From Candidatus Roizmanbacteria bacterium RIFCSPLOWO2_01_FULL_37_16 (GTDB taxonomy: Bacteria > Patescibacteriota > Microgenomatia > UBA1406 > GWC2-37-13), in the NCBI GenBank assembly GCA_001789695.1, contig MGAI01000034.1, positions 1-33,590 on the forward strand: 33,590 bases of DNA, in the 5' to 3' direction. Under the pieces are notes generated by a model. It saw only the letters and a list, made by a program, of their open reading frames with translations. It was not told the DNA's origin and searched no databases. Below, in pieces: positions 2,636 through 20,997 of this stretch (positions are counted from its first letter, which is position 1; each line of letters starts with the position of its first letter). The translations under genes were made by a program, and so were the position numbers.

Positions 2636-2650
2636 ACACCTGACAGGTGT
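2636..2650. repeat. 15-bp palindrome (ACACCTG-A-CAGGTGT)
   Basis: Perfect inverted repeat with a single central base, in the spacer between two minus-strand genes. It has no T-run on the minus strand, so it is not a clear terminator for the hydrolase-like gene. An operator is possible, since it sits about 45 bp upstream of the -10 box at 2584. Confidence 0.35.
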
Positions 2651-2686
2651 ACTTTTAAGCGACCATTACTTTTACCGCTAGTTAAC

Positions 2687-3805
2687 CTATCTTTCCAACT
2701 TTTTAAGCATCAGCTTAAATAAAAATAACATCAGCTTCCCCAACAGTTTATTTTTGTTTTGGTTTAAATTCTGTCGGTTGTCAACAATAAATTCATTAGG
2801 AAGTTCAGATAGTAGATCGCCTCGGAGTTCTTTTTTTGCTAAAATCTCGATCACTTCCCCAACATAAGAGTAAGGCGCTCCTATATGAAGATTTCCTAGG
2901 CGCTTCATTTCAATCCGTCTACCCTTTGGCCATAAATTTTTAATGGTTCCCTCCTTGCACATTCCATCATTACCGTTTGGATCAAGCTCAAATTCTGCCT
3001 CAATCTCAGCTTCAATTCCAAGTTTTTTAGCTACAGGGTCAAAATCCGCTCTCGCAACTGCGGCAAAAGGACAAGCCACGTAACCCTCACCCGCCTGACC
3101 GTTTAGGATAATCGTCAAGGGTAAATCGTCGCTTACTTCCTCAATTAATCTGCTCAAATCGTCAAGAAAATGAGAACCCACAAACATATCTTCAAGGCCG
3201 GGAACAGTTTCTAAGGGAAAAAGTTGTCTGATTAGATCTAAATATGTTTGCGCTACAATAGTTAAACCGTCAAAAATAGGGTCGATAAAAATTAATAATT
3301 TTGGCAGGCGGTAATTGGGAGGCGACTTCAAATCATAAGGATCGTAGCCTGCGTTTCTTGTTCTTTTTATCCTCATCCCAACAGCCCACATCACAGCTGA
3401 AGTTCCGGCGCTGTTACCGATGACTACCTCCAACTCACCCAGCCTGGCTAGTTTAGTTAATTCCTCATCAACTAGCTTGCCATAATGGCCTATCTTAAAA
3501 TCAGGCTGCAGATACTCATCAAACATATCTAAGCCACTAACACTAAAACCAGCTTTTTCAATTTCTTCTAAAAAAGAGTCAATGCTTCGTTTAAAAATAT
3601 TGCGGTTAGTCGGAAATCCCGTCTGTTCTCTTGGTTGACTTCTTAAAACTTGAGTCAAGCGAAAAAATTGGCTTGTAACTGGCTCCAGAAGCGTAGCTCC
3701 TTCAAAAAAAGCTACGTGGGAAAATCGACTCCCTCCCTCCATCACTCGTGTTAAAGAGGGGTTAGTATGGGCAGAGTGCTCAAATTGTTTTAAACTTTCG
3801 TTCAT
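2687..3805 (-). CDS. putative alpha/beta-hydrolase-fold serine hydrolase
   Basis: 372 residues, not closely recognised. Residues 127-134 read VVIGNSAG, a strand followed by a G-x-S-x-G nucleophile elbow (Ser132), as in alpha/beta hydrolases. Asp175 or Asp179 in the FIDPIFD segment and His307 in NLHIGAP are in the right order for the acid and base of a triad. The C-terminal 30 residues are lysine- and leucine-rich (KLMLFLFKLMLKKLER) and amphipathic, which could attach the protein peripherally to a membrane. There is no signal peptide. It lies 15 bp downstream of the DUF2207 gene on the same strand, so the two are probably co-transcribed. Substrate unknown. Confidence 0.55.
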   Translation of the reverse strand: MNESLKQFEHSAHTNPSLTRVMEGGSRFSHVAFFEGATLLEPVTSQFFRLTQVLRSQPREQTGFPTNRNIFKRSIDSFLEEIEKAGFSVSGLDMFDEYLQPDFKIGHYGKLVDEELTKLARLGELEVVIGNSAGTSAVMWAVGMRIKRTRNAGYDPYDLKSPPNYRLPKLLIFIDPIFDGLTIVAQTYLDLIRQLFPLETVPGLEDMFVGSHFLDDLSRLIEEVSDDLPLTIILNGQAGEGYVACPFAAVARADFDPVAKKLGIEAEIEAEFELDPNGNDGMCKEGTIKNLWPKGRRIEMKRLGNLHIGAPYSYVGEVIEILAKKELRGDLLSELPNEFIVDNRQNLNQNKNKLLGKLMLFLFKLMLKKLER

Positions 3806-3820
3806 CTTAAAGAGGACAAA

Positions 3821-5524
3821 CTACCATGATCCTCCACCACCACCGCCGCCGCCCCCTCCTGAAGATCCACCACTAAAACCACTGCTGAAGCCTGAGGAAC
3901 TGGTTGTAGGAGTTGCAGCAGACTGAAAACTGGAAAATGAGGAATTTAGACTATTTGTTAATGCTATGCTATTGAATCGGCCAGTCGAATAGCCTTCATA
4001 CCAGTCTGGTGGTCTCATCTCGATATCTTTAAACCGGTCTGCCCAAATTTTCTCAACTCCAAAAGCGATCGCATAGGGTAGAAGTTTCTCAAAAAACATC
4101 TGGTTTTTAGCCTGAAATTCAAGCTGGCGCTCTTGGCTGACTAAAAATTTTCTAAGCGATTTGGCAATACTGCTTGCTTCAACACCCAACAAAGTTTTTT
4201 TTGGCATATTGCGGCCGAATAAAAACGCTGAGAACGCCAAAGCGAAATTGATTGTAGTCAGCGCCAAACTACCGATAACAGTATAAAAAGTCCTGATCTT
4301 ATTTGGATTTTCAGGGAAAAATCCTTCTTGGACGAGTTTCTCGTAAATGCTTTTTTTCGATTCCTCAACCACCGTATTCAAGCTTGGCTTTTTATTCTTA
4401 AGTGAGATTGTCTCACCGCCTTGGAAAATCTCGTCTAAAAACTTTTTCTCAAATGTTAACAATCTAGAGTCGGAGGAATCTTTCTTTTTTACCAAGTAAA
4501 AGTTATTCTTTTCCCTCTCCTCTATCTTCATGAATCCTTTTTGAGCCAGAGACACTATCATCGCGGATAAGTCATCAATATCTACTCGCTCGTCAACCAA
4601 TGCTCCTGTCTCCTGGGGGGTAAGAGGTCTTCCCGTTTTTGTCTTGGGCGGGTCAAACCAAGCGCTTACTTCTCCAGGAACTTGTCCTGAGCGAGCGGAG
4701 CGAGTCGAAGGATCGCGACCTTCTCTTAGCCATTTAACAGGAATATAGATTGGATAGACAATATACCAAAAAATAGCAACAAGAATGATCATCCCTAGTA
4801 TTGCTTTGCCAACAAAACTCTGCCAAAAAGACACATATGGCTTTGGTTCCAAAAGCAAAGCAATGTTTTTTGGAAATCCAAATACCAGCGTCAACCCCTG
4901 ATTTGGTTCAAGTATCCCAATGGTTTTGAATGTCGCCGAAATATCAGTCTTGTTGATCTGGCAATCTTGATCTTTACTTCCTAGATAACCTGTATAACAG
5001 CTGGCAGAAATTTCTCTTTGGGCTACTCCAACAGGTAATCTAACTTCCGAGGTTAAAGATAGTATCGGAATTGTCCATTCGTTGCCATTGGAATTCCAAT
5101 ACAGCTCATCATGATCGGAAAAATAGGTAAGCGCACCGGAAACTTTATATTTAATAAGATAAATATTGACGCCTGTAATTGTTCTATTTGGGTCACCGAT
5201 TTTTAGATTAATATTTTCGTTAGAGACGGATTTCTTATACTGGTATTTTTTCCCATTCTCATCGGTTACGGAAAAATTTTCAAATTCAAGCTCAAATTTT
5301 TTTCCTGCTTTATTGGTTTTAATATATGGGGTATTTCTATAAATCCCGTGCCTTTGCAGATTGCCAAAATCATAAACAATTTTCTCCTCAACCTCTATTG
5401 TTCCGTCTTTATTGATGTTAATCTTCGAGTCAAAATTTTGGATCTGCTCCTTAGCATCAACTGCCGACCCAAGCTGAAGAAAAATAGCCAAAAAAACTAG
5501 GATTGTTAAAAACCTTTTTATCAC
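3821..5524 (-). CDS. DUF2207 family membrane protein with glycine-rich C-terminus
   Basis: 567 residues starting at GTG (5522-5524). Residues 1-24 are a signal peptide. Residues 27-225 form the extracytoplasmic DUF2207 domain, with the typical start of strands around INKDGTIEVEE and RHGIYRNTPY. A membrane helix spans about 238-260 and a second about 410-432. The cytoplasmic part contains winged-helix-like segments. The protein ends in a serine/glycine tract with ten consecutive Gly and a final Ser-Trp, usual for this family. Its function is unknown, though it is widespread in bacteria and archaea. Oddity: residues 271-281 (DPSTRSARSGQ) are encoded by a short dispersed DNA element (about 4685-4712) inserted in frame just after the first membrane helix. 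Confidence 0.85.
   Translation of the reverse strand: MIKRFLTILVFLAIFLQLGSAVDAKEQIQNFDSKININKDGTIEVEEKIVYDFGNLQRHGIYRNTPYIKTNKAGKKFELEFENFSVTDENGKKYQYKKSVSNENINLKIGDPNRTITGVNIYLIKYKVSGALTYFSDHDELYWNSNGNEWTIPILSLTSEVRLPVGVAQREISASCYTGYLGSKDQDCQINKTDISATFKTIGILEPNQGLTLVFGFPKNIALLLEPKPYVSFWQSFVGKAILGMIILVAIFWYIVYPIYIPVKWLREGRDPSTRSARSGQVPGEVSAWFDPPKTKTGRPLTPQETGALVDERVDIDDLSAMIVSLAQKGFMKIEEREKNNFYLVKKKDSSDSRLLTFEKKFLDEIFQGGETISLKNKKPSLNTVVEESKKSIYEKLVQEGFFPENPNKIRTFYTVIGSLALTTINFALAFSAFLFGRNMPKKTLLGVEASSIAKSLRKFLVSQERQLEFQAKNQMFFEKLLPYAIAFGVEKIWADRFKDIEMRPPDWYEGYSTGRFNSIALTNSLNSSFSSFQSAATPTTSSSGFSSGFSGGSSGGGGGGGGGGSW
4685..4712. repeat. short dispersed repeat (TCCTGAGCGA...GTCGAAGGA type) inside a gene
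   Basis: A GC-rich 28-bp word between TCCTGAGCGA and GTCGAAGGA, unlike the surrounding AT-rich coding sequence. Related words occur at 28061-28080 (also inside a gene) and, degenerate, at 29758-29784 between genes. It preserves the frame of the DUF2207 gene. Confidence 0.6.
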
Positions 5525-5745: not shown

Positions 5746-6471
5746 ATGAATTCAGCAATTGGCTTAATACTTGGCAGCGGTTGGGGCGGGATAATTGACC
5801 AAGTAAAAAATAAAAAAGAAAAAGACTTCAAATCAGTTTTTGGCCATAAAACAAGTGTAAAAGGTCATGCGGGTAAAGTCATAACTGGTTCGCTTCTTAC
5901 TAATAAAGTAATTGTTCTTTCGGGTAGATTTCACACCTATGAAGGTTATAGCTCTTATGAAGCAACAAAAACTATACGTTATTTACATGAACAGGGTGTA
6001 AAAAAAATAATAATAACTTCGGCTGTCGGAGCATTAAATCCAAAATTTCAGGTAGGTGATTTGGTAATTTTGAGCGATATTATTTCTATTTTTTGCCAAA
6101 GCCCTCTAACCGGATCACAATTTCAAAACCTTTCCCAACCGTTTAGCGGGAATTTAATTGAGTTGGCTCTAAAGGCTGCAGGTCAAAGCGGTCTCACTTC
6201 CCAAAAAGGTGTTTATGTCTATATGAGGGGCCCTCACTTCGAATCCTACAGCGACAAAATGGCACTGCGCTTTTTAGGCGCTGATGTCGTCGGTATGAGC
6301 ACGGTACCAGAAGTAATAATGGCAAATCACTTGAAGATGGAAGTTTTGGGATTGTCGCTGGTGACGAATTTGGCTTTGGTTAAACATCAACATCAGGAAG
6401 TTCTCCAAGCTGTCAAAAATCAGGAAAAAAAATTAAAAAATTTCTTTTTGAATCTAATCAATTTATTATGA
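5746..6471 (+). CDS. punA: purine nucleoside phosphorylase
   Basis: 241 residues. The enzyme phosphorolyses inosine/guanosine-type nucleosides to the free base and ribose-1-phosphate. The motifs of the trimeric PNP class appear in order: LGSGWG near residue 9 (phosphate loop), GRFHTYEGY near 65 (phosphate/ribose contacts), SAVGALN...VGDLV (usually NAAGGLN), GPHFES (usually GPxFET), and VGMSTVPEVIMA (purine/ribose site). The final VTNLA replaces the usual S-x-ITN. Several signature positions are therefore drifted, and the protein is about 30 residues shorter than typical PNPs. It is the first gene of a cluster overlapping the phosphoribosyltransferase by ATGA at 6468-6471, which together would convert nucleosides to bases and then to nucleotides. 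Confidence 0.88.
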   Translation: MNSAIGLILGSGWGGIIDQVKNKKEKDFKSVFGHKTSVKGHAGKVITGSLLTNKVIVLSGRFHTYEGYSSYEATKTIRYLHEQGVKKIIITSAVGALNPKFQVGDLVILSDIISIFCQSPLTGSQFQNLSQPFSGNLIELALKAAGQSGLTSQKGVYVYMRGPHFESYSDKMALRFLGADVVGMSTVPEVIMANHLKMEVLGLSLVTNLALVKHQHQEVLQAVKNQEKKLKNFFLNLINLL

Positions 6472-7013
6472 AATTTTATAAACTTTCCTGGCAAGAGCTG
6501 CAAGCAGATTGCTACAAACTGGCTAAAAAATTAAAAAAGCAAAAATTCGATCGGATTTTATGCATTTCAAGAGGCGGATTAGTCTGGGCAAGAATGTTTT
6601 CCGATTTATTAAATCTGCCTGTCTCGCATCTGACTGTTGTCTCCTACCAGGATCTAAAACAGCAAAAAGAAACCAAAATAACCGAAGTTCCCGCAACTCT
6701 GGAAAATCAAAATATGCTAGTTGTTGACGAAATCGCCGATAGCGGCAAAACTTTGAAAATAGTTATCGATTATTTACATTCGATTAATATTTACAAATTT
6801 AAAACCTTAGCTCCTATTATTCGAAAATTCACCAAACCAAAACCCGATATTTATCTGAAGATCATCAATGAATGGGTTATCTTTCCTTACGAAATCCGGG
6901 AAACAGCCCAAGCTTTTATAAAATTATTTACAACTAAAGCTAAAGCCAAAAAAAAATTATTAGAAGTTGGCTTCGAAAATTGGGAAATAGATGAAATATT
7001 CCAAAGCTCCTGA
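6468..7013 (+). CDS. purine-type phosphoribosyltransferase
   Basis: 181 residues of the type I phosphoribosyltransferase fold. The hood contains ILCISRGGLVWAR (about 30-42), the pyrophosphate-binding loop with the conserved Arg-Gly. The PRPP motif is MLVVDEIADSGKTL (83-96), where the standard pattern is two acidic residues followed by (D/A)xxG(K/R)T. This size and order resemble xanthine/hypoxanthine phosphoribosyltransferases, which make IMP, XMP or GMP from base plus PRPP. The start codon overlaps the stop of the phosphorylase gene, implying coupled translation and a common salvage role. The last 60 residues are a less conserved lysine-rich extension. The exact base specificity cannot be read. 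Confidence 0.8.
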   Translation: MKFYKLSWQELQADCYKLAKKLKKQKFDRILCISRGGLVWARMFSDLLNLPVSHLTVVSYQDLKQQKETKITEVPATLENQNMLVVDEIADSGKTLKIVIDYLHSINIYKFKTLAPIIRKFTKPKPDIYLKIINEWVIFPYEIRETAQAFIKLFTTKAKAKKKLLEVGFENWEIDEIFQSS

Positions 7014-7362
7014 CATCCAGCAAAAAATAGATCAATTAATCGATCAATTAAATCTTGATTATATTCAAGGAAAAAATATCCACTGCATCCGCAGTTTTGA
7101 TGCAAAAACGAGGGCCTATGCTAGAATCTGGGGCATGGCAAAGCTTTTTAAAGAAGTTGCCGGACTAGAACCCCACTATATCATCGAAGTAAACGCTAAG
7201 CGCTTTGACAAATTGAATCCGCGTGAACAGTTAAAAACCTTGATTCACGAATTAATGCACATCCCAAAGACCTTTTCAGGAGCGCTTCTCCCCCATCGAG
7301 GTAGATACCATCGTATCAATGACCAAGAGATTGAAAAAATAATCAAAAGTTTAGAAATTTAG
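6991..7362 (+). CDS. small zinc metallopeptidase-like protein (HExxH)
   Basis: 123 residues. HELMH at 86-90 is a zinc-binding HExxH motif on a helix, followed by IPKTFSG and a downstream PHRGRYHRIN segment with two more histidines (102 and 107), one of which may be the third ligand. The same arrangement is found in small proteins annotated as putative phage or archaeal metallopeptidases. No signal peptide, so probably cytoplasmic. The gene starts inside the end of the phosphoribosyltransferase gene (23-bp overlap in another frame) and is thus the third member of the operon. Why a peptidase should go with purine salvage is unclear. Confidence 0.7.
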   Translation: MKYSKAPDIQQKIDQLIDQLNLDYIQGKNIHCIRSFDAKTRAYARIWGMAKLFKEVAGLEPHYIIEVNAKRFDKLNPREQLKTLIHELMHIPKTFSGALLPHRGRYHRINDQEIEKIIKSLEI

Positions 7363-13001: not shown

Positions 13002-13541
13002 ATGACAGCCGAAGGACAGCCTATCAGGCTAAAAAACATCCTGAAAATTGCTGTACCGGTTGGCTTAGCTATCTGTGGTCTTATTGCCTACTTCGGATTT
13101 GATCAGCAAAAGATCGAAAAATGGTTTAAGTCTACTGAAGGAGCCGGAGCAACCCCTACGCCGTCATTGACCTCACCTGCCGGAAATATATTTTTAGCTG
13201 AAACCCCGATGCCAACGTCTATGCTACCAGCTCCAGAAGTTAAAAAAACGCCTATGGCTAAAAAACCAAAAAGATGTGCAACTGTTGATTCCAAAGTTTT
13301 TAAACGAAAGAATGCCTTCAGAATTTGGCTTCACTTAGGTAAACCGGAGGAGCTTATTTTTGAGAATGTTGCCGGGCCGGACGCGACCGATAAAAAAGTT
13401 AGAGTATCAAGAGGTAATTTACCTGGGTTGGTTAATAACGGCGATAGATTCTGCCTACCCAAGGACGTAAAAGTTAATCCAAAGTTCCGAAGAAGCGTAC
13501 CAGTACCGCAGTCGTTCCCCGGCTTCATAACTAGAAGATAA
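13002..13541 (+). CDS. uncharacterised membrane-anchored protein with Thr/Pro-rich linker
   Basis: 179 residues, not recognised. One membrane helix (about 14-30) is followed by a proline/threonine/serine-rich linker (about 48-85) typical of cell-wall-spanning segments, then a basic globular region of about 95 residues ending in RR. Two Cys (about 92 and 153) could form a disulfide outside the cell. TACAAT lies 10 nt upstream of the ATG, so it may have its own promoter despite following the receivers. It converges on the minus-strand Cys-rich gene, with only 12 bp between the two stops. Confidence 0.7.
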   Translation: MTAEGQPIRLKNILKIAVPVGLAICGLIAYFGFDQQKIEKWFKSTEGAGATPTPSLTSPAGNIFLAETPMPTSMLPAPEVKKTPMAKKPKRCATVDSKVFKRKNAFRIWLHLGKPEELIFENVAGPDATDKKVRVSRGNLPGLVNNGDRFCLPKDVKVNPKFRRSVPVPQSFPGFITRR

Positions 13542-13553
13542 AAAATATCAAAG

Positions 13554-13862
13554 CTAATCACAATAGACGTATTTTATAGGAAAACTGCAGCCGACCGCTG
13601 CGCATTGTTCTGGAGTTAACTTTTTATCTTGTTCAATCTTTTCTTCTATGCTTTCGCCTTTTAATTTGTATAAGCACTCAACCTTGGCTATTTCTGCAAG
13701 CGGTTTGTCAAATCCACAACAGCCACAACCGCAAGATATGTATGATTGGGCCTCCTGAGTTACTTTTTTAAAATTTTCAGCCTTATTGAACAATGATCTT
13801 AAAAAATTTGCTGTAAAGACCGCAGTCGCAATAATTCCTAGAAATATGATTGTTTTCCACAT
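13554..13862 (-). CDS. small Cys-rich membrane-anchored protein
   Basis: 102 residues, function unknown. Residues 1-20 are a membrane anchor or signal. A CGCGCCGF cluster near residues 44-51 and further Cys in VECLY, EQCAAVGC and VYCD give eight cysteines in the last 60 residues. They suggest metal binding or disulfide pairing outside the membrane. This gene has one of the clearest Shine-Dalgarno sequences in the window: AAAGGAG 8 nt before the ATG, with TATAAA further upstream. Confidence 0.7.
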   Translation of the reverse strand: MWKTIIFLGIIATAVFTANFLRSLFNKAENFKKVTQEAQSYISCGCGCCGFDKPLAEIAKVECLYKLKGESIEEKIEQDKKLTPEQCAAVGCSFPIKYVYCD

Positions 13863-13930
13863 ATAATTGACTCCTTTAATAAATATTTATACTAGTTTTG
13901 CTTGAAAGTCAACCCAATTCAATCTGATAA

Positions 13931-13965
13931 CTAAAACTTGAACATCGGGGGTTAAAGATATTGTC
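13931..13965 (+). repeat. 35-bp direct repeat R1, copy 1
   Basis: Contains the core TCGGGGGTTAAAGATATTG. Other copies lie at 15137-15171 (about 30/35 identical) and 15916-15950 (33/35), all in the same orientation and all between genes. Here it lies in the divergent spacer before the HExxH lipoprotein gene. Confidence 0.8.
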
Positions 13966-14037
13966 AATTAAGCCATTAAGTTGAAATTATTATTATAGGC
14001 TACAAAAATCACCGCTGAGATGATAAAATAAAGACTT

Positions 14038-15096
14038 ATGCCTGAATCGCCCTCAAATCGACAGTCTTATAAGGAGTTCCGCTCGCCACGATTCTACACA
14101 AGAATTATGGGTTTAATGGTTTTAGCGTACCTTGTTATTTTGTCGTGTAATGCTGGAGCCATTCCAACCGCTTCCGTTTCTCCAGCTCAATCAACGACAC
14201 CTTACGCTGAAGTCACCGAAGAAGCTCAATTTCCTCCTCTTGAAGAAAATACTCCAGCGAATATTTTTCTTGTACCTTCGGTTGATGACCTCGTAAATTT
14301 TGGTCAATCAATATATAATCCTACGAGTATTGAAATTACTAAGGAAATTAATACCCGTGATCGTCAGGTAGTTGAAATCCAAGCAGCGCCAGTATATTCG
14401 CCTGAAGATTGCTATGATAATCAAGATACATATAGAGATGAAATCTGCAGAGCAGCAACTGCTTTTGCCGAAAGCACAGGTCTTGATCCGAATCGGATTA
14501 TTGAAACCATTTATCCAAATTCTTTTCTCATCCCCCATGAGAATATATCTGATGCTTGTCTTTCTCCAAATCCTCAAGCCTGCACTTGGTCCGATGGAAT
14601 TTTTGTTGAACAAGGTTACGCTATCCACCCGGGAGTGATCGCACATGAAATCACTCATTTTCTTCTACCACCAGAAGCTTACCAGTCAGATGGTCAGATG
14701 TGTACCGCAGCTAATCCTGATTATAGTTATAGTCTCTATCTCCCAACAGAACAATATCCCCCTGATCTTCTACCTGAAGGATTTGAAGTGTCAACAGCAT
14801 ATTTTGAGATAACTATCAGTAAAGAGCTGTTTCCAACTTTTTTTGAAACGCTGACAGAACCGGATTATACTCCAGGTAATTTGCTTGGTCAACCCCCTGA
14901 TAAAATCCTACCTATCAATGATTTTGCCAAGAGAGTCAATAAAAACTCTACCTTATTTGAAGGCAGGTCTTTGAGTTTTATCCAAGATGGAGGGATTGAG
15001 CTTTTTTTAAGAGCTAATCACGCGTTTAATTCAATAATGAATTTGCCCGACTTTTCTCAACAACTTGACGCCTTGCCCGAATTCTGCCAACCATAA
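14038..15096 (+). CDS. putative lipoprotein with HExxH metallopeptidase-like motif
   Basis: 352 residues. A hydrophobic segment (about 23-36) ends in VILSC, a lipobox with Cys37, so the mature protein is probably a lipid-anchored surface protein. It is preceded by an unusually long polar N-terminus of about 22 residues. A Pro/Thr/Ser-rich linker follows. At 199-210 GVIAHEITHFLL is a zinc HExxH motif (His203, Glu204, His207) with hydrophobic flanks like real metallopeptidases. Four Cys around 125-182 may form disulfides. The family is not recognised. TAAAAT lies 8 nt before the ATG. The gene is enclosed by R1 repeat copies 1 and 2, which makes it look like a separable cassette. Confidence 0.72.
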   Translation: MPESPSNRQSYKEFRSPRFYTRIMGLMVLAYLVILSCNAGAIPTASVSPAQSTTPYAEVTEEAQFPPLEENTPANIFLVPSVDDLVNFGQSIYNPTSIEITKEINTRDRQVVEIQAAPVYSPEDCYDNQDTYRDEICRAATAFAESTGLDPNRIIETIYPNSFLIPHENISDACLSPNPQACTWSDGIFVEQGYAIHPGVIAHEITHFLLPPEAYQSDGQMCTAANPDYSYSLYLPTEQYPPDLLPEGFEVSTAYFEITISKELFPTFFETLTEPDYTPGNLLGQPPDKILPINDFAKRVNKNSTLFEGRSLSFIQDGGIELFLRANHAFNSIMNLPDFSQQLDALPEFCQP

Positions 15097-15136
15097 CAAC
15101 AAACAACACTCCACTCAACTAAAAATTGATTGAGTC

Positions 15137-15171
15137 TCGAAAATTGAACCTCGGGGGTTAAAGATGTTGTC
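15137..15171 (+). repeat. 35-bp direct repeat R1, copy 2
   Basis: The most divergent of the three copies (five differences from copy 1 or 3), but the central GGGGGTTAAAGAT is intact. It lies between two converging genes, 3 bp before the stop codon of the gene at 15175. Confidence 0.78.
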
Positions 15172-15174
15172 GAT

Positions 15175-15804
15175 TTACTTTCTGGAAGGAAGTCTTATCG
15201 CTTTAACTTGAGCTCTAAGCAGCTGGCCGGAATTTATCCTTGCATATACCGGAATATAGCCTCTTATCTGTTCCCTTATGTTGTCATTCATCACCTGAAA
15301 ACTTGAAACTCCCGGCAGTTCGTTTGCCGATTGAGAAAAAGCCATAACTAAGGAATTAACTATGTTCGGATAGACTGTTCCTCTCTCAACTTGGAAATCA
15401 TATGATTTTAAGGTTCGGAAAATACCGTTTAGGAAAGGTTGATAATCACCGTAGACCCTTGCTTCACCGGGTTTTACGGGAAATTTGACCGCGTCCTCAA
15501 CCGCAAGAGAAAAAGCTCTGACTAATACTCTTTGGTTGAGGGGATCATGAAAAAAACCGTCGTTGAGAAAAGTGAAAATCTCATCGTACTCCATAAGACA
15601 TACCAGCGAAGCGAAAATGTCCGATAATCTGTTGTAAGTTAAAAAAATTAAAGTACCTTGGTTATTAACTGTTATTTTCTCGCCGATTTTTGTCTTAGGA
15701 AAACCTATCGCTTCCCTTATTCTTAATATTGCTTGGCTTTGTCTTAGCCAAAATGGGTCGATAAATTCGGCCCTGGACGGCTCGTCATAAAAAATATCTG
15801 ACAT
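15175..15804 (-). CDS. uncharacterised protein, 209 residues
   Basis: Not recognised. The protein is soluble, without signal or membrane segments, and has a mostly helical pattern with an aromatic-rich N-terminus (IFYDEPSRAEFIDPFW). The start is the ATG at 15804; no clear promoter or Shine-Dalgarno sequence was found beyond an A-rich stretch. It is bounded on both sides by R1 repeats (copies 2 and 3), like the preceding lipoprotein gene but in the opposite orientation. Confidence 0.65.
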   Translation of the reverse strand: MSDIFYDEPSRAEFIDPFWLRQSQAILRIREAIGFPKTKIGEKITVNNQGTLIFLTYNRLSDIFASLVCLMEYDEIFTFLNDGFFHDPLNQRVLVRAFSLAVEDAVKFPVKPGEARVYGDYQPFLNGIFRTLKSYDFQVERGTVYPNIVNSLVMAFSQSANELPGVSSFQVMNDNIREQIRGYIPVYARINSGQLLRAQVKAIRLPSRK

Positions 15805-15915
15805 AGTTTTTTTTGATTATTTATTTTGGATATTTCCTAATGTATAACCATTAAGCTTTTCTCTTAATAAATAAATTTTGAATAGATTAATTATATTTTA
15901 ATATAGCGATTGAAC

Positions 15916-15950
15916 CTAAAACTTCAACCTCGGGGGTTAAAGATATTGTC
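15916..15950 (+). repeat. 35-bp direct repeat R1, copy 3
   Basis: 33 of 35 positions match copy 1, including the leading CTAAAACTT. It lies upstream of the unknown gene at 15175-15804 and downstream of brnA. Confidence 0.8.
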
Positions 15951-16063
15951 ATTGTTGTTGAAGTAGAACAAACAAACTATAAAATAAGGAGAAAATAAAA
16001 GCTAAACCAATATTTTGAGTCACTTAATTTATTTTATAATATTATAAATAAGGTCATGACACT

Positions 16064-16093
16064 CTATTCCACTCCGGAGGTGGAGATAGGATT
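16064..16093 (+). repeat. 30-bp repeat R2, copy 1
   Basis: Starts CTATTCCACTCCGGAG and ends GGATT. It aligns without gaps to 17286-17315 (24/30) and 18231-18260 (26/30), and all differences are transitions. CCAC and GTGG within it can form a small hairpin. It lies just downstream of brnA; the other copies border the purA 3' ends. Confidence 0.65.
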
Positions 16094-16108
16094 ATTGAAC
16101 GAGTCGGA

Positions 16109-16384
16109 TTAAGAATTTAATTCTTTTTGCACTCTTTCGGCTAAAAAGATTTTTATCAGCGATTGGTAAGCTACGTCGCGAGAATTGGCAAGCTGTTTGA
16201 TCCTTGCCAAAAGCCACTCCGGTAAGCGGATCGAGATAGTTTCTGTTGAAGGTTTTAGATTCGGAAAGATAACCTCCTCGGCTTTATCCCAATCAAAATA
16301 CTCAGAAGTGTCAGCTTTTGCCCAAAACTTCCGCTCCTCGTCTTCATTCTTAAACTTTGGTATTGCTTTGAATTTTTTTTTCAT
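16109..16384 (-). CDS. brnA: BrnA-type antitoxin
   Basis: 91 residues. The N-terminal half carries the acidic, aromatic pattern of BrnA/CopG-type antitoxins (EERKFWAKADTSEYFDW), and the C-terminal half is a ribbon-helix-helix domain (ETISIRLPEWLLARIKQLA) that binds operator DNA. It overlaps the end of the toxin gene by 35 bp in another frame. AAAGGAGGG lies a few bases before its ATG inside brnT, so it should be translated more strongly than the leaderless toxin. BrnA neutralises BrnT and represses the shared promoter in characterised systems. Confidence 0.85.
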   Translation of the reverse strand: MKKKFKAIPKFKNEDEERKFWAKADTSEYFDWDKAEEVIFPNLKPSTETISIRLPEWLLARIKQLANSRDVAYQSLIKIFLAERVQKELNS

Positions 16385-16664
16385 AAGCCCTCCTTTCTTT
16401 TCGACTCATATCTCGAACCGAAATAATCCTTACCTTTTCTGCTCTTAAGGTAAAGAAAACTGCTAACTTTCTGTTTCTTTTTGTCACTCCCCAGACCATA
16501 TATCGATCTTCAAGCAAAGAATGCTTTTCGTCTTTAAATATATATTTTTTAGGACTTTCAAAAGCCTCTTCTGCCTCTTTATCAGATACTCCGTGTTCTT
16601 TTAGATTTTTTTCGATATTGCCTTTATCCCACTCAAACTCCAGCGGCTCCTGCAAAATCTTCAT
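16350..16664 (-). CDS. brnT: BrnT-type toxin (ribonuclease)
   Basis: 104 residues with the BrnT pattern throughout: FEWDKGNIEKNLKEHGVS at the start, EAEEAF, DRYMVWGVTKRNRKLAVFFT, and RIISVRDMSRKERRAYE at the end, which includes the conserved Arg and the final Arg-x-x-Tyr. BrnT is a RelE-fold endoribonuclease. The toxin precedes the antitoxin, the normal BrnTA order. A textbook promoter (TTGACA, 17 nt, TATACT) ends 7 nt before the ATG, implying a leaderless message. Confidence 0.88.
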   Translation of the reverse strand: MKILQEPLEFEWDKGNIEKNLKEHGVSDKEAEEAFESPKKYIFKDEKHSLLEDRYMVWGVTKRNRKLAVFFTLRAEKVRIISVRDMSRKERRAYEKKIQSNTKV

Positions 16665-16671
16665 TTATTTT

Positions 16672-16700
16672 AGTATATATGAGCAATATACATTTGTCAA
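16672..16700 (-). promoter_or_regulatory. sigma-70-type promoter of brnTA
   Basis: On the minus strand TTGACA (16695-16700), a 17-nt spacer and TATACT (16672-16677), then 7 nt to the brnT ATG. One of the best promoters in the window. The alternating TATA-rich spacer may contain the BrnA operator. Confidence 0.75.
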
Positions 16701-17215
16701 GTATGTAACATTTTACCTGCGGTGGAAAAATAATTTTTCATCTTTGCTATTGCTTCATCGACTTTATGCAAATTTGCCTTTGTCTTTAGATTACCTCTAG
16801 CATACTCCATTATCGGACGGACCGATTCAATTTTTCTGCCAAATTTTTCCGCCATCCAAGTATATCTAGGAAAAATCCAAACATGAAAATGGTGTGACGT
16901 ATCTTCTTCTTGGATCAAATAAACCGTCTGGATGTCTAATACCTACCTCATCATTTTTCGCAATCCCGTCAAAAATTCAATGAAATCAGCTCTTTCTTCT
17001 GCCGTAAATTCATCCACACTCTGTAAATGCCTTTTTGCTGCAACTATGACAAAACCTGGAATAGGAATCTCATAATCTTGATTTGCGACAAAAAATTTTG
17101 TCGAATCTATAAAGATACTTGTACTCTCTACTTCACCTGATTGAATTGCACAACCAAGACAACCCACTTTTCTCTTATTTCCCTTTATCCTAACGATTTC
17201 TCTTTTTCGATACAT
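16697..17215 (-). pseudogene. HIT family protein gene interrupted by one in-frame TAG
   Basis: The two halves (17215-16943 and 16942-16697) are in the same frame and separated by a single TAG at 16943-16945. Read through, the product is about 172 residues. The first half has a Cys pair (GCLGC) and the strand pattern of HIT hydrolases, with PIPGFVIVAAKRH. The second continues directly with DIQTVYLIQEEDTSHHFHVWIFPRY, containing the HIT motif (His-x-His-x-Trp, with Trp in place of the third His). The family hydrolyses nucleotide-phosphoester or Ap4A-type substrates. TAAAAT lies 7 nt upstream of the ATG. This could be a fresh nonsense mutation, a sequencing error or read-through. The flanking codons look unrelaxed, which favours a recent event. 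Confidence 0.8.
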
Positions 17216-17222
17216 AGTTTTA

Positions 17223-17228
17223 ATTTTA
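17223..17228 (-). promoter_or_regulatory. -10 box (TAAAAT) of the HIT gene, leaderless
   Basis: TAAAAT on the minus strand followed by seven bases and ATG at 17215-17213. Confidence 0.4.
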
Positions 17229-17285
17229 CCAATTTTTTTCGGCGTCAGCTGAAAGCCTACTCCAATTAATCGATTAATCGAAGTG

Positions 17286-17419
17286 CTATTTCGCTCCGGA
17301 AATGGAGGTGGGATTAAATTTTAATAAATTGACTTCGTTCGGGGCCGGTGCCGATGTAGAAGATAGGAATTTGTAGGAAATCCTGGATGAATTTTAGGTA
17401 ATATCGGCAGTTTCTTGGC
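17286..17419. repeat. 134-bp direct repeat, left copy (duplicated 3' end of purA)
   Basis: It matches 18231-18364 without gaps at about 127 of 134 positions. On the minus strand it still encodes the last 35 or so residues of PurA with its TAA stop and only two amino-acid changes (Lys to Arg, Glu to Gln). Nothing of the rest of purA is attached. The first 30 bp are repeat R2. Between the copies lie 811 bp carrying a lipoprotein-like gene and a short reading frame. Confidence 0.9.
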
Positions 17420-17445
17420 TTTGTACCTGTATACCCTCAGGGTGT

Positions 17446-17616
17446 ATGATTAACCACGAAAGTATTTTGACCAGAAAATATGGAGGCTCAAAATATTATC
17501 TGCCTGCACTTCTCCAATCAGTTTATGAAGAAATAACTAGACCGATCAATCCTTGTGATAATTGTCTTATAGCAACAACTGATGCCCTGAATCTTGTTCA
17601 CGAAGCAATTTATTAA
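17446..17616 (+). CDS. possible small protein, 56 residues
   Basis: A short open frame from ATG at 17446 to TAA at 17614-17616, beginning MINHESILTRKYGG and containing CDNCLIATTDALN. Its amino-acid mix looks protein-like and it ends 25 bp before the lipoprotein gene in the same orientation. There is no good ribosome binding site, only AGGGTG too close to the ATG. It may be a real small gene or a remnant. Function unknown. Confidence 0.4.
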   Translation: MINHESILTRKYGGSKYYLPALLQSVYEEITRPINPCDNCLIATTDALNLVHEAIY

Positions 17617-17630
17617 ATTTAGGCAGTATA

Positions 17631-18229
17631 ATTAATCTCGTATGAAAGAAGGTTTGTATATACCAGCTCCGGAAATGGGGGTTTTGCTGCCAGATCCGGA
17701 AAATATATTTGGGAAAGGGTGTATTCAGGAAAGAATACCTGCTGGAGTTCTAAATCTCCTAGTTGCGGTTAGTTATGTATTGTCTTCTTGTGCTGGTGGA
17801 GCCTTCGATAGCCACACGCAAAATGAATTTGATAAGTTACAGGTTAAACCGACTGCAACCAAAACGTCAAATGGTACAGCTGAAAAAATTTATATTCCTC
17901 CTAGTCCATCTAGCGAACTACAACCTGAATGTGGTGAGTATGAACCAAGACAGGTTATGATTAGCCCCTTAGGTGAGAACCCAATTTTTAATCCGATAGA
18001 TCCAGAAACTGGCAATATTTTTAAATGCACTGCAGTTCAACCTAAAAGCACTAGGAGTGTTGAAGTCAGCTGCGAAACGCAAGGAATAGGAGAACAAACA
18101 CCCGTTAATCTTGAAGATATTAAAGGAGTTAAAACTTTTAATACAACTGTAAAAGATACAAGCTTATCACGTACTCCTATAGATCAGGTTATGGCTTTAA
18201 TTGTTAAATATTGTGGTTTGCAAAAATAA
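17631..18229 (+). CDS. putative small lipoprotein
   Basis: 195 residues from the ATG at 17642; the entry also includes the upstream -10 box. A hydrophobic helix (about 35-48) ends in VLSSC, a lipobox with Cys50, so a lipid-anchored exported protein is likely. It is preceded by a 34-residue polar extension, longer than normal for a signal peptide. The mature part has four or more Cys and a Pro/Ser-rich beginning, and no recognised domain. TATAAT lies 9 nt before the ATG. The gene fills most of the insert between the two purA 3'-end copies, so it appears to have arrived with the event that created the duplication. Confidence 0.68.
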
Positions 18230-18230
18230 T

Positions 18231-18364
18231 CTATTCCACTCCGGAGATAGAGGTGGGATTAGATTTTAATAAATTGACTTCGTTCGGGGCCGGTGCCGAT
18301 GTAGAAGATAGGAATTTGTAGGAAATCCTCGATGAATTTTAGGTAATATCGGCAGTTTTTTGGC
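18231..18364. repeat. 134-bp direct repeat, right copy (true 3' end of purA)
   Basis: The in-place copy of the repeat described at 17286-17419. It covers the last 35 codons and stop of purA and 28 bp downstream of the stop, which include repeat R2. Confidence 0.9.
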
Positions 18365-19527
18365 AGTCGGCTGAACTTTTTAATTTTATCGATTGGTTCT
18401 GTCCAACCGGGAAAACTTTTATAAATCGGTGTTAATTTGGCAAGTTCGCGATAACCTGATTCAACATAGGATATTTTCTTGCCGTTTAGCTTATAACTAA
18501 TACAGACTTTAATTTCTTTTACGCTTGTTAGAATGTCAATTTTTGTAATTGCCAAACGGTTTGCTTCGGCAAGACTGGTTGTGAATTTAACCGCTTCAAG
18601 ATCGAGCCAGCCGATCCGGCGGGGCCTGCCTGTAGTTGTGCCAAACTCCTTACCTCGCTCCCTGATCTGATCTGCTGTTTTTCCAAAAAATTCGCTTGGC
18701 AAAGGTCCTCCACCCACACGTGAGAGATACGCTTTCACCACTGCCCAAGAGCGATTAATTCTGCTTACCGGAAGGCCCGCGCCGGTATTTATGGCTCCTC
18801 TGATGATGTTACTGCCGGTAGAATAGGGATAAGGACTCCAGTCAATATCCAACATCACTCCATGGGCTCCCTCGAGAAGAATTTTTTTGTTGTCATTTTG
18901 GGCTTTTTGAAGAACCGGATAAACTTCTCGGACATAAGGCAAAATCGTTTTCCTATGCTCTGCCAATTTCACCAGCTCTTTCTTGACAGATATTGGTTTA
19001 ACGCCAAACAATTTTAAAATCTTATTTTTTATTTTGGCCTGAAAAGTAAATTTCTCAACAAAACCTTTCCAGTCTAAAAGTTCATACATTCTCAAGCCGT
19101 TGTAGCTGACTTTATCGGCAAAGGTCGGACCTATCCCCCGACGGGTGGTGCCAAGTTTATTTTTCCCTCTGGCATTTTCATAGGCTTCATCCAGCGCCTT
19201 GTGATAGGGCATAATCAAATGACAGCGGGGAGAAATTAGAAGTTTATTTTTGAGCAAGTAACCGTCTTTGGCTAAGTTATTAATTTCTTCGAGTAAAACC
19301 TCAAGATCGACGATGACGCCGTTGGCGATCACTCCGATTGCTTTGGGATTAAGAATTCCAGAAGGCAGCAAATGAAAAGGATAGCGTTTCTCTCCAACGA
19401 TAACAGTATGACCGGCATTGTTGCCGCCGTGAAAGCGGACAACATAGTCGGCGTCTGCCGCCAAATAATCAACCAGCTTGCCTTTGCCTTCGTCACCCCA
19501 TTGGGAACCAAAAACAAACTGTATCAT
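18259..19527 (-). CDS. purA: adenylosuccinate synthetase
   Basis: 422 residues, full length. The enzyme joins IMP and aspartate using GTP, the first committed step to AMP. Diagnostic segments: GSQWGDEGKGKLVD at 7-20 (P-loop), HGGNNAGHTV near 34-43, GTTRRGIGPTFADK (IMP site), the VEGAHG-type segment LLEGAHGVMLDIDWSPYPYST, and TTTGRPRRIGW. All catalytic elements are intact. purB lies upstream on the same strand, 123 bp away, with a foldable leader between them. Its last 35 codons are duplicated about 0.95 kb downstream (17286-17419). Confidence 0.97.
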   Translation of the reverse strand: MIQFVFGSQWGDEGKGKLVDYLAADADYVVRFHGGNNAGHTVIVGEKRYPFHLLPSGILNPKAIGVIANGVIVDLEVLLEEINNLAKDGYLLKNKLLISPRCHLIMPYHKALDEAYENARGKNKLGTTRRGIGPTFADKVSYNGLRMYELLDWKGFVEKFTFQAKIKNKILKLFGVKPISVKKELVKLAEHRKTILPYVREVYPVLQKAQNDNKKILLEGAHGVMLDIDWSPYPYSTGSNIIRGAINTGAGLPVSRINRSWAVVKAYLSRVGGGPLPSEFFGKTADQIRERGKEFGTTTGRPRRIGWLDLEAVKFTTSLAEANRLAITKIDILTSVKEIKVCISYKLNGKKISYVESGYRELAKLTPIYKSFPGWTEPIDKIKKFSRLPKNCRYYLKFIEDFLQIPIFYIGTGPERSQFIKI

Positions 19528-19536
19528 ATTGGTTTT

Positions 19537-19643
19537 TTGTTAGATTCTGCCATGAGTTTCCCTCCCGTCAGTGCTCGAACCAGCGACAGGCTGGAAAAAT
19601 TCTGCGCGCTGCCGGGAGCCCTTCCTCTCATGTCACCTAACAA
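19537..19643 (-). ncRNA. structured leader between purB and purA (candidate cis-regulatory RNA)
   Basis: On the minus strand four helices nest symmetrically: TTGTTAG/CTAACAA (19637-19643 with 19537-19543), CATGAG/CTCATG (19627-19632 with 19551-19556), CTCCCG/CGGGAG (19613-19618 with 19562-19567) and CCAGC/GCTGG (19590-19594 with 19580-19584). The inner part is far more GC-rich than the rest of the window. It ends about 10 nt before the purA ATG, a position suited to control of translation. It does not match any riboswitch consensus I can recall. Confidence 0.5.
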
Positions 19644-19650
19644 TAATTAT

Positions 19651-20997
19651 TTATTTTATAAGCCCTACTAGTTTTTTGGCTAAACCCAAATAATTTTCCG
19701 GCTTAAGTTTAACTAATTTCTCTTCGTTTGCCAATCCCAATTGCTTTAACAATTCCAAATAATCTTCTTTATTCAACTGTTTTCCCCTGACCAGGTCTTT
19801 AACCTTATCATAGCCTTTTGAATCTTTTTTCAATCGTAAAAATGTCTGCACTGCCTCGGTTAAAACCTCCCAATGGTTATTGAGCGTTTCATTAGATTTT
19901 TGTCTATTTACATCGATCTTGGCCAAACCCAGCTGCAAACTTTTCCAAGCAACAATGGTATAACCTAAAGCCGAACCCATACTGCGCTTCACGGGTGAAT
20001 CGGATAAATCGCGCTGCAGTCGGGAAACTGATAATTTGTTTTGAAAAAACTGGAAAAGTGAATTGGCTATTTGCAGATTACCCTCGGCGTTTTCAAAATT
20101 GATCGGATTGACTTTTTGCGGCATGGTCGAGGATCCGACCTCTTTTTCTACAACCTTTAGTTTCAGATCCTCAAGCATGATGTAGATCCAAACATCCTGA
20201 CTTAAGTTCATCAAAATCTGGTTTACCAGAGCCAAAGTTTGAAAAAACTCGATCCAGTTATCATACGGCAAAATCTGGGTTGTATAAAGGTTTGGCTGCA
20301 AACCTAGACTAGATACAAATTTTTTACTTTTTTGTAACCAGTCGACAGTGGGAAAAACAAATGCCATAGCATTGAAGTTGCCGACTGCGCCGGAAAGTTT
20401 TCCTTCAAAAGTAAATCTGGATAATTTCTCCTCTTGTTTTTTAAGTCTTTGGTAGAAATTTGCCAGCTCTTTGCCAAAAGTCGTCGGCACTGCCGGCTGA
20501 CCGTGTGTTCGACCAAGCATAGCTGAATCCGCATAAATCTTAATTAAAATTTTAAGTTGCTCCATGATCTTTTTCAGTTCGGGAAGAATGATTTCTTTTT
20601 TGCTTTGTAAAAGCATCAGGCTGTAGGCGAGGTTATTGACGTCGTCTGAAGTCAGGCAAAGATGAAGATATGATGCGAATACCGACAAATTTTTTTTAGC
20701 AAATTTTTCCTGCAAAAAATACTCTATCGCTTTAACATCATGTTTTATCTTGTCCTCGATAGTTTTAATTCTTTTGGCGTCAGCATGACTAAACTCGCGC
20801 CAGAGGCGATTGATTTTATCAGCCTGTTTTTTTGTTATTGGTTCGATTATTTTTTCTGATGAGAGAAAAAGAAGATATTTGATCTCGACCAGCAGGCGAT
20901 ATTTAAAATAGGCAAAGTCGGAAAAAAATTTATTTAATTCAGTCAGTTGAGAAGCATAGCGGCCATCAAGAGGACTGATTCTAGTGAGGGGGTCCAT
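19651..20997 (-). CDS. purB: adenylosuccinate lyase
   Basis: 448 residues, fumarase/aspartase superfamily, of the longer E. coli-like type (start DPLTRISPLDGRY). It releases fumarate from adenylosuccinate to give AMP and also acts on SAICAR. Signature parts are present: TSDDVNN (116-122), GRTHGQPAVPTTFGKE (about 162-177, with the catalytic His), and the flexible loop SSTMPQKVNPINFENAEGN (289 onward, with catalytic Ser290). It is upstream of purA on the same strand, so both steps from IMP to AMP are together. No other de novo purine gene is in the window. Confidence 0.97.
   Translation of the reverse strand: MDPLTRISPLDGRYASQLTELNKFFSDFAYFKYRLLVEIKYLLFLSSEKIIEPITKKQADKINRLWREFSHADAKRIKTIEDKIKHDVKAIEYFLQEKFAKKNLSVFASYLHLCLTSDDVNNLAYSLMLLQSKKEIILPELKKIMEQLKILIKIYADSAMLGRTHGQPAVPTTFGKELANFYQRLKKQEEKLSRFTFEGKLSGAVGNFNAMAFVFPTVDWLQKSKKFVSSLGLQPNLYTTQILPYDNWIEFFQTLALVNQILMNLSQDVWIYIMLEDLKLKVVEKEVGSSTMPQKVNPINFENAEGNLQIANSLFQFFQNKLSVSRLQRDLSDSPVKRSMGSALGYTIVAWKSLQLGLAKIDVNRQKSNETLNNHWEVLTEAVQTFLRLKKDSKGYDKVKDLVRGKQLNKEDYLELLKQLGLANEEKLVKLKPENYLGLAKKLVGLIK

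Follow-up and report, generated by a model that had tools for sequence, protein, structure and literature searches.

A displaced second end of purA beside REP-like hairpins in a Candidatus Roizmanbacteria genome: a possible scar of single-gene capture

Integrative elements that insert at the 3′ ends of conserved genes leave the target gene intact, and a second copy of the gene end marks their far junction. In natural transformation, homology-facilitated illegitimate recombination combines a homologous arm with a joint formed without homology, which leads to an insertion with duplication. In integrons, single gene cassettes are separated by directly repeated hairpin sites. The repeats of RAYT/TnpAREP transposases (REP, BIME, REPtron) are short hairpins with a conserved flank, which occur in many intergenic copies and as inverted pairs around Y1 (PF01797) genes, with some of them adjoining stop codons. 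Atypical RAYT repeats exist, and Patescibacteria are unmentioned in the main text of Quentin et al. (PMC6006769). TnpAREP is able to cut and join single-stranded DNA beside its repeats in vitro (PMC8266576).

The window is the whole stretch of DNA analysed here, 33,590 nucleotides of contig MGAI01000034.1 from Candidatus Roizmanbacteria bacterium RIFCSPLOWO2_01_FULL_37_16. The initial annotation of the window described a direct repeat of 134 bp formed by the end of purA, an outer copy coding for the last 35 residues and the stop of PurA, and a 56-codon frame with a lipoprotein-like gene between the copies. The coordinates of the repeat proved exact, with 127 of 134 positions identical and no gaps (self-blastn E = 5e-55). 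The outer copy keeps the frame and the stop, and both open frames were located between the copies. The features of the purA locus are the following:

17286-17419, minus strand: repeat copy A1, a displaced second purA 3′ end plus the degenerate hairpin H1
17286-17316, minus strand: hairpin H1, a degenerate RAYT-type repeat with a poor fold, under the reporting threshold with model R1
17420-18230, plus strand: insert between the copies, 811 bp, with no further copy in its own genome beyond chance short matches
17446-17616, plus strand: 56-codon open frame, candidate coding, from the frame list
17642-18229, plus strand: cassette gene for a lipoprotein-like protein of 195 aa, with an LSSC lipobox-like motif after a hydrophobic stretch, convergent with purA
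18231-18364, minus strand: repeat copy A2, the working final 35 codons and stop of purA, in frame with the gene, plus the degenerate hairpin H2
18231-18261, minus strand: hairpin H2, degenerate, overlapping the purA stop and one nucleotide away from the stop of the lipoprotein gene (model R1, 18.4 bits, E 0.29)
18259-19527, minus strand: purA, the target gene, from the frame list and purA comparison

As in integrative elements, the intact gene end lies on one side of the insert and the displaced end on the other. The insert and one repeat copy together make a unit of 945 bp. The GC content of the insert is 0.374, that of the window 0.381. A -10-like TATAAT lies about 10 bp ahead of the ATG of the cassette lipoprotein gene, whose product has no relative in Pfam, NCBIfam, the PDB, viral contigs or 72 family genomes. 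On its left side the repeat ends at the base of the degenerate hairpin immediately behind the purA stop, and the outer edge of H1 coincides with the edge of the 134-bp repeat. The seven mismatches between the copies are unevenly spread: five fall within about 31 bp around the stop and the hairpin, and two in the other 103 bp (Fisher p = 0.007). The shared coding part holds three differences, one synonymous and two replacements. In A1, R replaces the K of LPKNC and Q the E of FIE, at two well conserved PurA positions, so that A1 looks like a copy freed from selection. In the sister genomes compared, the closest purA homolog shares 71% identity, too little to reveal an empty site, and unrelated genes follow it. 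A purA scan of genome contigs gave only distant purA genes among the matches listed, the best being 48% identical (a Levyibacteriota record). The closest tRNA gene, as a conceivable insertion target, is several kb away. The same genome encodes a second purA, which is 44% identical and adjoins a guaB-like gene (C36 1483-2748, L029).

Several smaller observations concern the surroundings of the repeat. The segment GCTCCGGAAATGGGGGT at 17666-17682, at the start of the cassette lipoprotein frame, is identical to the core of H1 at 16 of 17 positions and is a possible further hairpin remnant. A palindromic TTAATCGATTAATCG element occupies 17256-17285, directly left of A1; similar copies are found on C35, C24 and C4, and in G002:C37. 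The HIT-family gene at 16697-17215 (minus strand) is interrupted by an in-frame TAG at 16943-16945, after which the frame continues. This may mark a pseudogene, or a variant that stems from sequencing or from the strain.

Three of the hairpins in the window, H0, H1 and H2, are of one type. They all lie within 2.2 kb and are the sole copies of this type in their own genome. The best preserved is H0, of which the part 16063-16094 forms a 32-nt direct repeat with H2. Further hairpins and genes are found to the left of the purA locus:

13937-13965, plus strand: hairpin of the same family as H0 (R1 41.8 bits), enclosing one lipoprotein-like gene together with the hairpin at 15143
14038-15096, plus strand: lipoprotein-like gene of 352 aa with a HEITH motif and without a Pfam match, between the two directly repeated hairpins
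15143-15171, plus strand: hairpin of the same family as H0 (R1 42.2 bits)
15922-15950, plus strand: hairpin of the same family, in the orientation opposite to H0 (R1 43.1 bits)
16058-16094, minus strand: hairpin H0, behind the BrnTA pair (R1 35.1 bits, E 7e-5)
16109-16384, minus strand: BrnA-like CopG antitoxin gene (PF12441, E 1e-32)
16350-16664, minus strand: BrnT toxin gene (PF04365, E 2e-22)

The hairpins at 13937, 15143 and 15922 enclose the lipoprotein-like gene and a 209-aa frame. On opposite strands, they and the H0-type hairpins fit one gapless motif of 29 nt, consisting of an 8-nt stem, a 5-nt loop, an 8-nt stem and an 8-nt tail ending in TTGTC. In this family 85% of the cells are paired, the covariation score is 0.361 versus 0.133 in shuffles, and compensatory double changes occur in five of the eight pairs. 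Searches with a covariance model of the family gave, for each of six genomes of the genus, 11-25 matches at E<=1. H1 and H2 fold no better than shuffled sequences. An Rfam search of 13500-19600 gave no match, and the H0-type pattern was not found in viral contigs. A role of the hairpins solely as transcription terminators was rejected, since several occupy upstream regions without a T run.

In congeners, hairpins of this family flank RAYT genes in inverted orientation. Four genes for Y1 transposases of the RAYT kind are placed between such inverted hairpins:

L223, 2850-3491: RAYT-kind Y1 transposase gene
L229, 1936-2619: RAYT-kind Y1 transposase gene
L231, 1932-2690: RAYT-kind Y1 transposase gene
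L224, 5687-6397: RAYT-kind Y1 transposase gene

RAYTs also adjoin hairpin copies in L180 and L230. Three RAYTs were tested against PF01797, and two scored above the cut-off and one just below it. The window's own contig carries no Y1 gene. Because they flank these transposase genes in inverted orientation, the hairpins are REP-like. They share with the described RAYT repeats a conserved flank, many intergenic copies and, for some copies, a place next to a stop codon. An assignment to the canonical GTAG REP was rejected: the GT[AG]G foot is absent, and the conserved 3′ tail TTGTC takes its place. The hairpins differ from the described RAYT repeats also in what lies between them, namely single passenger genes and copied gene ends.

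The layout of the purA locus recurs at other genes. Three further loci in two congeners contain an extra copy of a gene 3′ end beside hairpins with a cassette gene between, and these cassette genes are mostly lipoprotein-like. Every cassette gene enclosed in this way, at all four loci, is convergent with the gene whose end is copied. G003:C174 (L221) holds three extra copies of the end of the gene at 6358-7233 (minus strand): one, at 3664-3784, is 98% identical over 121 bp, and two diverged ones lie near 4778-4873 and 6040-6115. All three extra copies begin at the same nucleotide, abutting a hairpin tail, and between the copies lie a 260-aa frame and the lipoprotein-like gene 3862-4446. The two diverged copies appear to have decayed, because pN is about equal to pS. 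In G004:C31 (L179), an 82-bp repeat that contains a hairpin along with the final 24 bp of the gene 2649-3170 (minus strand) brackets a gene for a lipoprotein-like protein of 374 aa. A 1295-bp unit with this bracketed gene is present there in two near-identical tandem copies (1-2672), and the contig begins inside the repeat. In G004:C27 (L180), the gene 2651-4345 (minus strand), which encodes Metallophos and CBM96 domains, has a second version of its end at about 838-982. This second end comprises 46 codons, is complete to the stop and lies 5 to 7 nt from a hairpin; one gene of 359 aa separates it from the intact gene.

For the locus in G004:C27 a probable empty site was identified in the sister species G005. 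In G005:C1 (L284), 34 bp separate the end of the gene's ortholog from the convergent neighbour that in G004 follows beyond the cassette, and no hairpin of the RAYT-type family is present at this site. The displaced end, the spacer and the neighbour in G004:C27 share 89-92% identity with G005, against 76% for the intact gene; most of the other ortholog pairs compared range from 68 to 78%, with one block at 88%. The two gene ends of G004:C27 differ with a pS of 0.65 above a pN of 0.20, a divergence as between functional sequences. Taken with the 89-92% versus 76% identity to G005, this means that the second end did not arise as a local duplicate that then decayed: a stretch of DNA with a gene end on it passed between lineages, and its joint formed near a hairpin.

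Nine control loci (about 138 kb) contained some direct repeats of other kinds and no copied gene end; the enrichment of four loci versus none is not significant, the numbers being too small. Two other repeats were noted in congeners. In G003:C9 (L285, 1854-2948), a toxin-antitoxin pair of two genes, presumably AbiE-like, stands between 82-bp direct repeats of 94% identity, and no gene end is copied. The direct repeats in G001:C6 (L238) were set aside as another dispersed repeat.

We tentatively prefer to read the purA repeat as the scar of one single-gene capture, based on homology in the gene end and a joint near a RAYT hairpin; we give this somewhat less than an even chance. The DNA that joined the chromosome behind purA would have carried a 3′ end of purA with the hairpin trailing it, and a lipoprotein gene in convergent orientation. 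One side would have been anchored by homology in the gene end, which would leave purA intact. The other side would have been joined without homology, placing the second purA end, A1, at the outer junction. Breaks or stalled forks at the RAYT-family hairpins may favour such joints, and a RAYT enzyme may take part in the capture. An intact gene with a hairpin, a convergent lipoprotein gene and a second end follow one another at purA as at the other loci, which by analogy suggests one-sided homologous recombination and a common mode of origin. The initial annotation had proposed an insertion at the 3′ end of purA that left the gene end on both sides. An insertion is supported by analogy with the three congener loci, one of them with its probable empty site. 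An integrase-type island is unsupported, as the 945-bp unit contains no recombinase, no crossover is shared and the edges vary. The preferred reading shares one homologous arm and one joint without homology with homology-facilitated illegitimate recombination. It differs in that microhomology at the joint is usual in that process, whereas here several joints lie at or near hairpins and show little or no microhomology. This scarcity of microhomology speaks against the preferred reading, as do the degeneration of H1 and H2 beyond good folding and the want of a significant hairpin at the joint at 17419. The association with hairpins is also partly ascertained, since three of the four loci came to light through hairpin searches. 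The common start nucleotide of the copies in G003:C174 would better suit a site-specific step or later copying.

An alternative that we consider unlikely, while deserving attention, is movement driven by a RAYT. A Y1 transposase acting in trans would excise and insert hairpin-bounded single-gene DNA and stack cassettes at gene ends, with the copies of gene ends carried along. All four loci indeed have RAYT-family hairpins within or at their repeats or joints. Single genes are framed by directly repeated hairpins both in the window and in G004:C27, and a site-specific RAYT step is conceivable because the joints in G003:C174 fall at one nucleotide. The in vitro cleavage and joining of single-stranded DNA beside repeats by TnpAREP (PMC8266576) also speaks for this reading. 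Against this, the orientation of the hairpin relative to the gene copy varies between loci, no target sequence is shared, and a hairpin is lacking at the gene-side joint of G004:C31, with no significant one at that of purA (17419). Moreover, RAYTs are not known to move passenger genes.

A purely local event is distinctly unlikely. The end of purA would have been duplicated in tandem, through slippage or a fork template switch at a hairpin, and later split by insertion of the lipoprotein gene, with no foreign gene ends involved. The 95% identity of A1 and A2, the appearance of A1 as a decaying copy and the clustering of the H0/H1/H2-type hairpins suit such an event. It would, however, leave unexplained the divergent functional gene end and the exchanged block in G004:C27, and the recurrence of convergent cassettes.

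We regard as improbable, more so than a local duplication, that a tyrosine recombinase in trans placed a 945-bp circle into an att site at the purA 3′ end, as in a classical non-autonomous integrative element. A1 and A2 are positioned as attL and attR would be, the intact gene end is on the element side, and the genome encodes two tyrosine recombinases (PF00589). However, both are located on other contigs, and they are probably housekeeping enzymes because both kinds recur in four of five congeners. The absence of an integrase, already noted in the initial annotation, holds for all frames of the 945-bp unit, which also has no recognised core site. The distance of the gene-internal repeat edge from the stop differs at each of the four loci, the identity segments differ in length, and their edges are unrelated, with no common crossover or target sequence. 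The exchanged block in G004:C27 runs through the neighbour gene. A classical integrase element is thus disfavoured by the missing integrase and the variable, unrelated edges. In contrast to the known elements at conserved-gene 3′ ends, the unit is under 2 kb and shares no attachment core with the other loci.

The fusion of two strain variants in a metagenome-type assembly, suggested by the draft state of the genome (60 contigs) and by the start of G004:C31 exactly in its repeat, is very improbable, because A1 and A2 differ by seven mismatches and three assemblies show the same layout, each time at another gene or genes.

The four loci point to a repeated capture of single genes at gene ends beside hairpins. 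A wider proposal, which we hold to be unlikely as it stands, is that Patescibacteria-like bacteria possess a gene-capture system built on RAYT hairpins. It would stack single genes, for lipoproteins or toxin-antitoxin modules, behind conserved genes in an integron-like manner, and would use single-strand Y1 chemistry without an integrase. As in integrons, single genes are separated by directly repeated hairpins, but here each gene seems to be served by a promoter of its own, and integrons include no copied gene ends. The attC sites are also longer than the 29-nt hairpins. If such gene capture is real, bacteria with very small genomes would have a recurrent means of gaining and stacking surface-protein and toxin-antitoxin genes that needs no integrase and leaves the adjoining essential genes unbroken. 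The RAYT transposases, whose role beyond moving their own repeats is unproven, would obtain a testable passenger, and the four loci offer concrete joints for testing.

A further structured element lies between purB and purA. It is about 125 nt long (window 19532-19655, minus strand), is absent from Rfam 15 and has 46 matches in the six genomes of the genus (2 to 22 each). Its consensus fold comprises 36 pairs, 24 of them with compensatory double changes. This element is a candidate for an undescribed structured RNA or a structured mobile element. Some of its copies lie inside long open frames, for example a topoisomerase-like (L312) and an asparagine-synthase-like (L321) frame.
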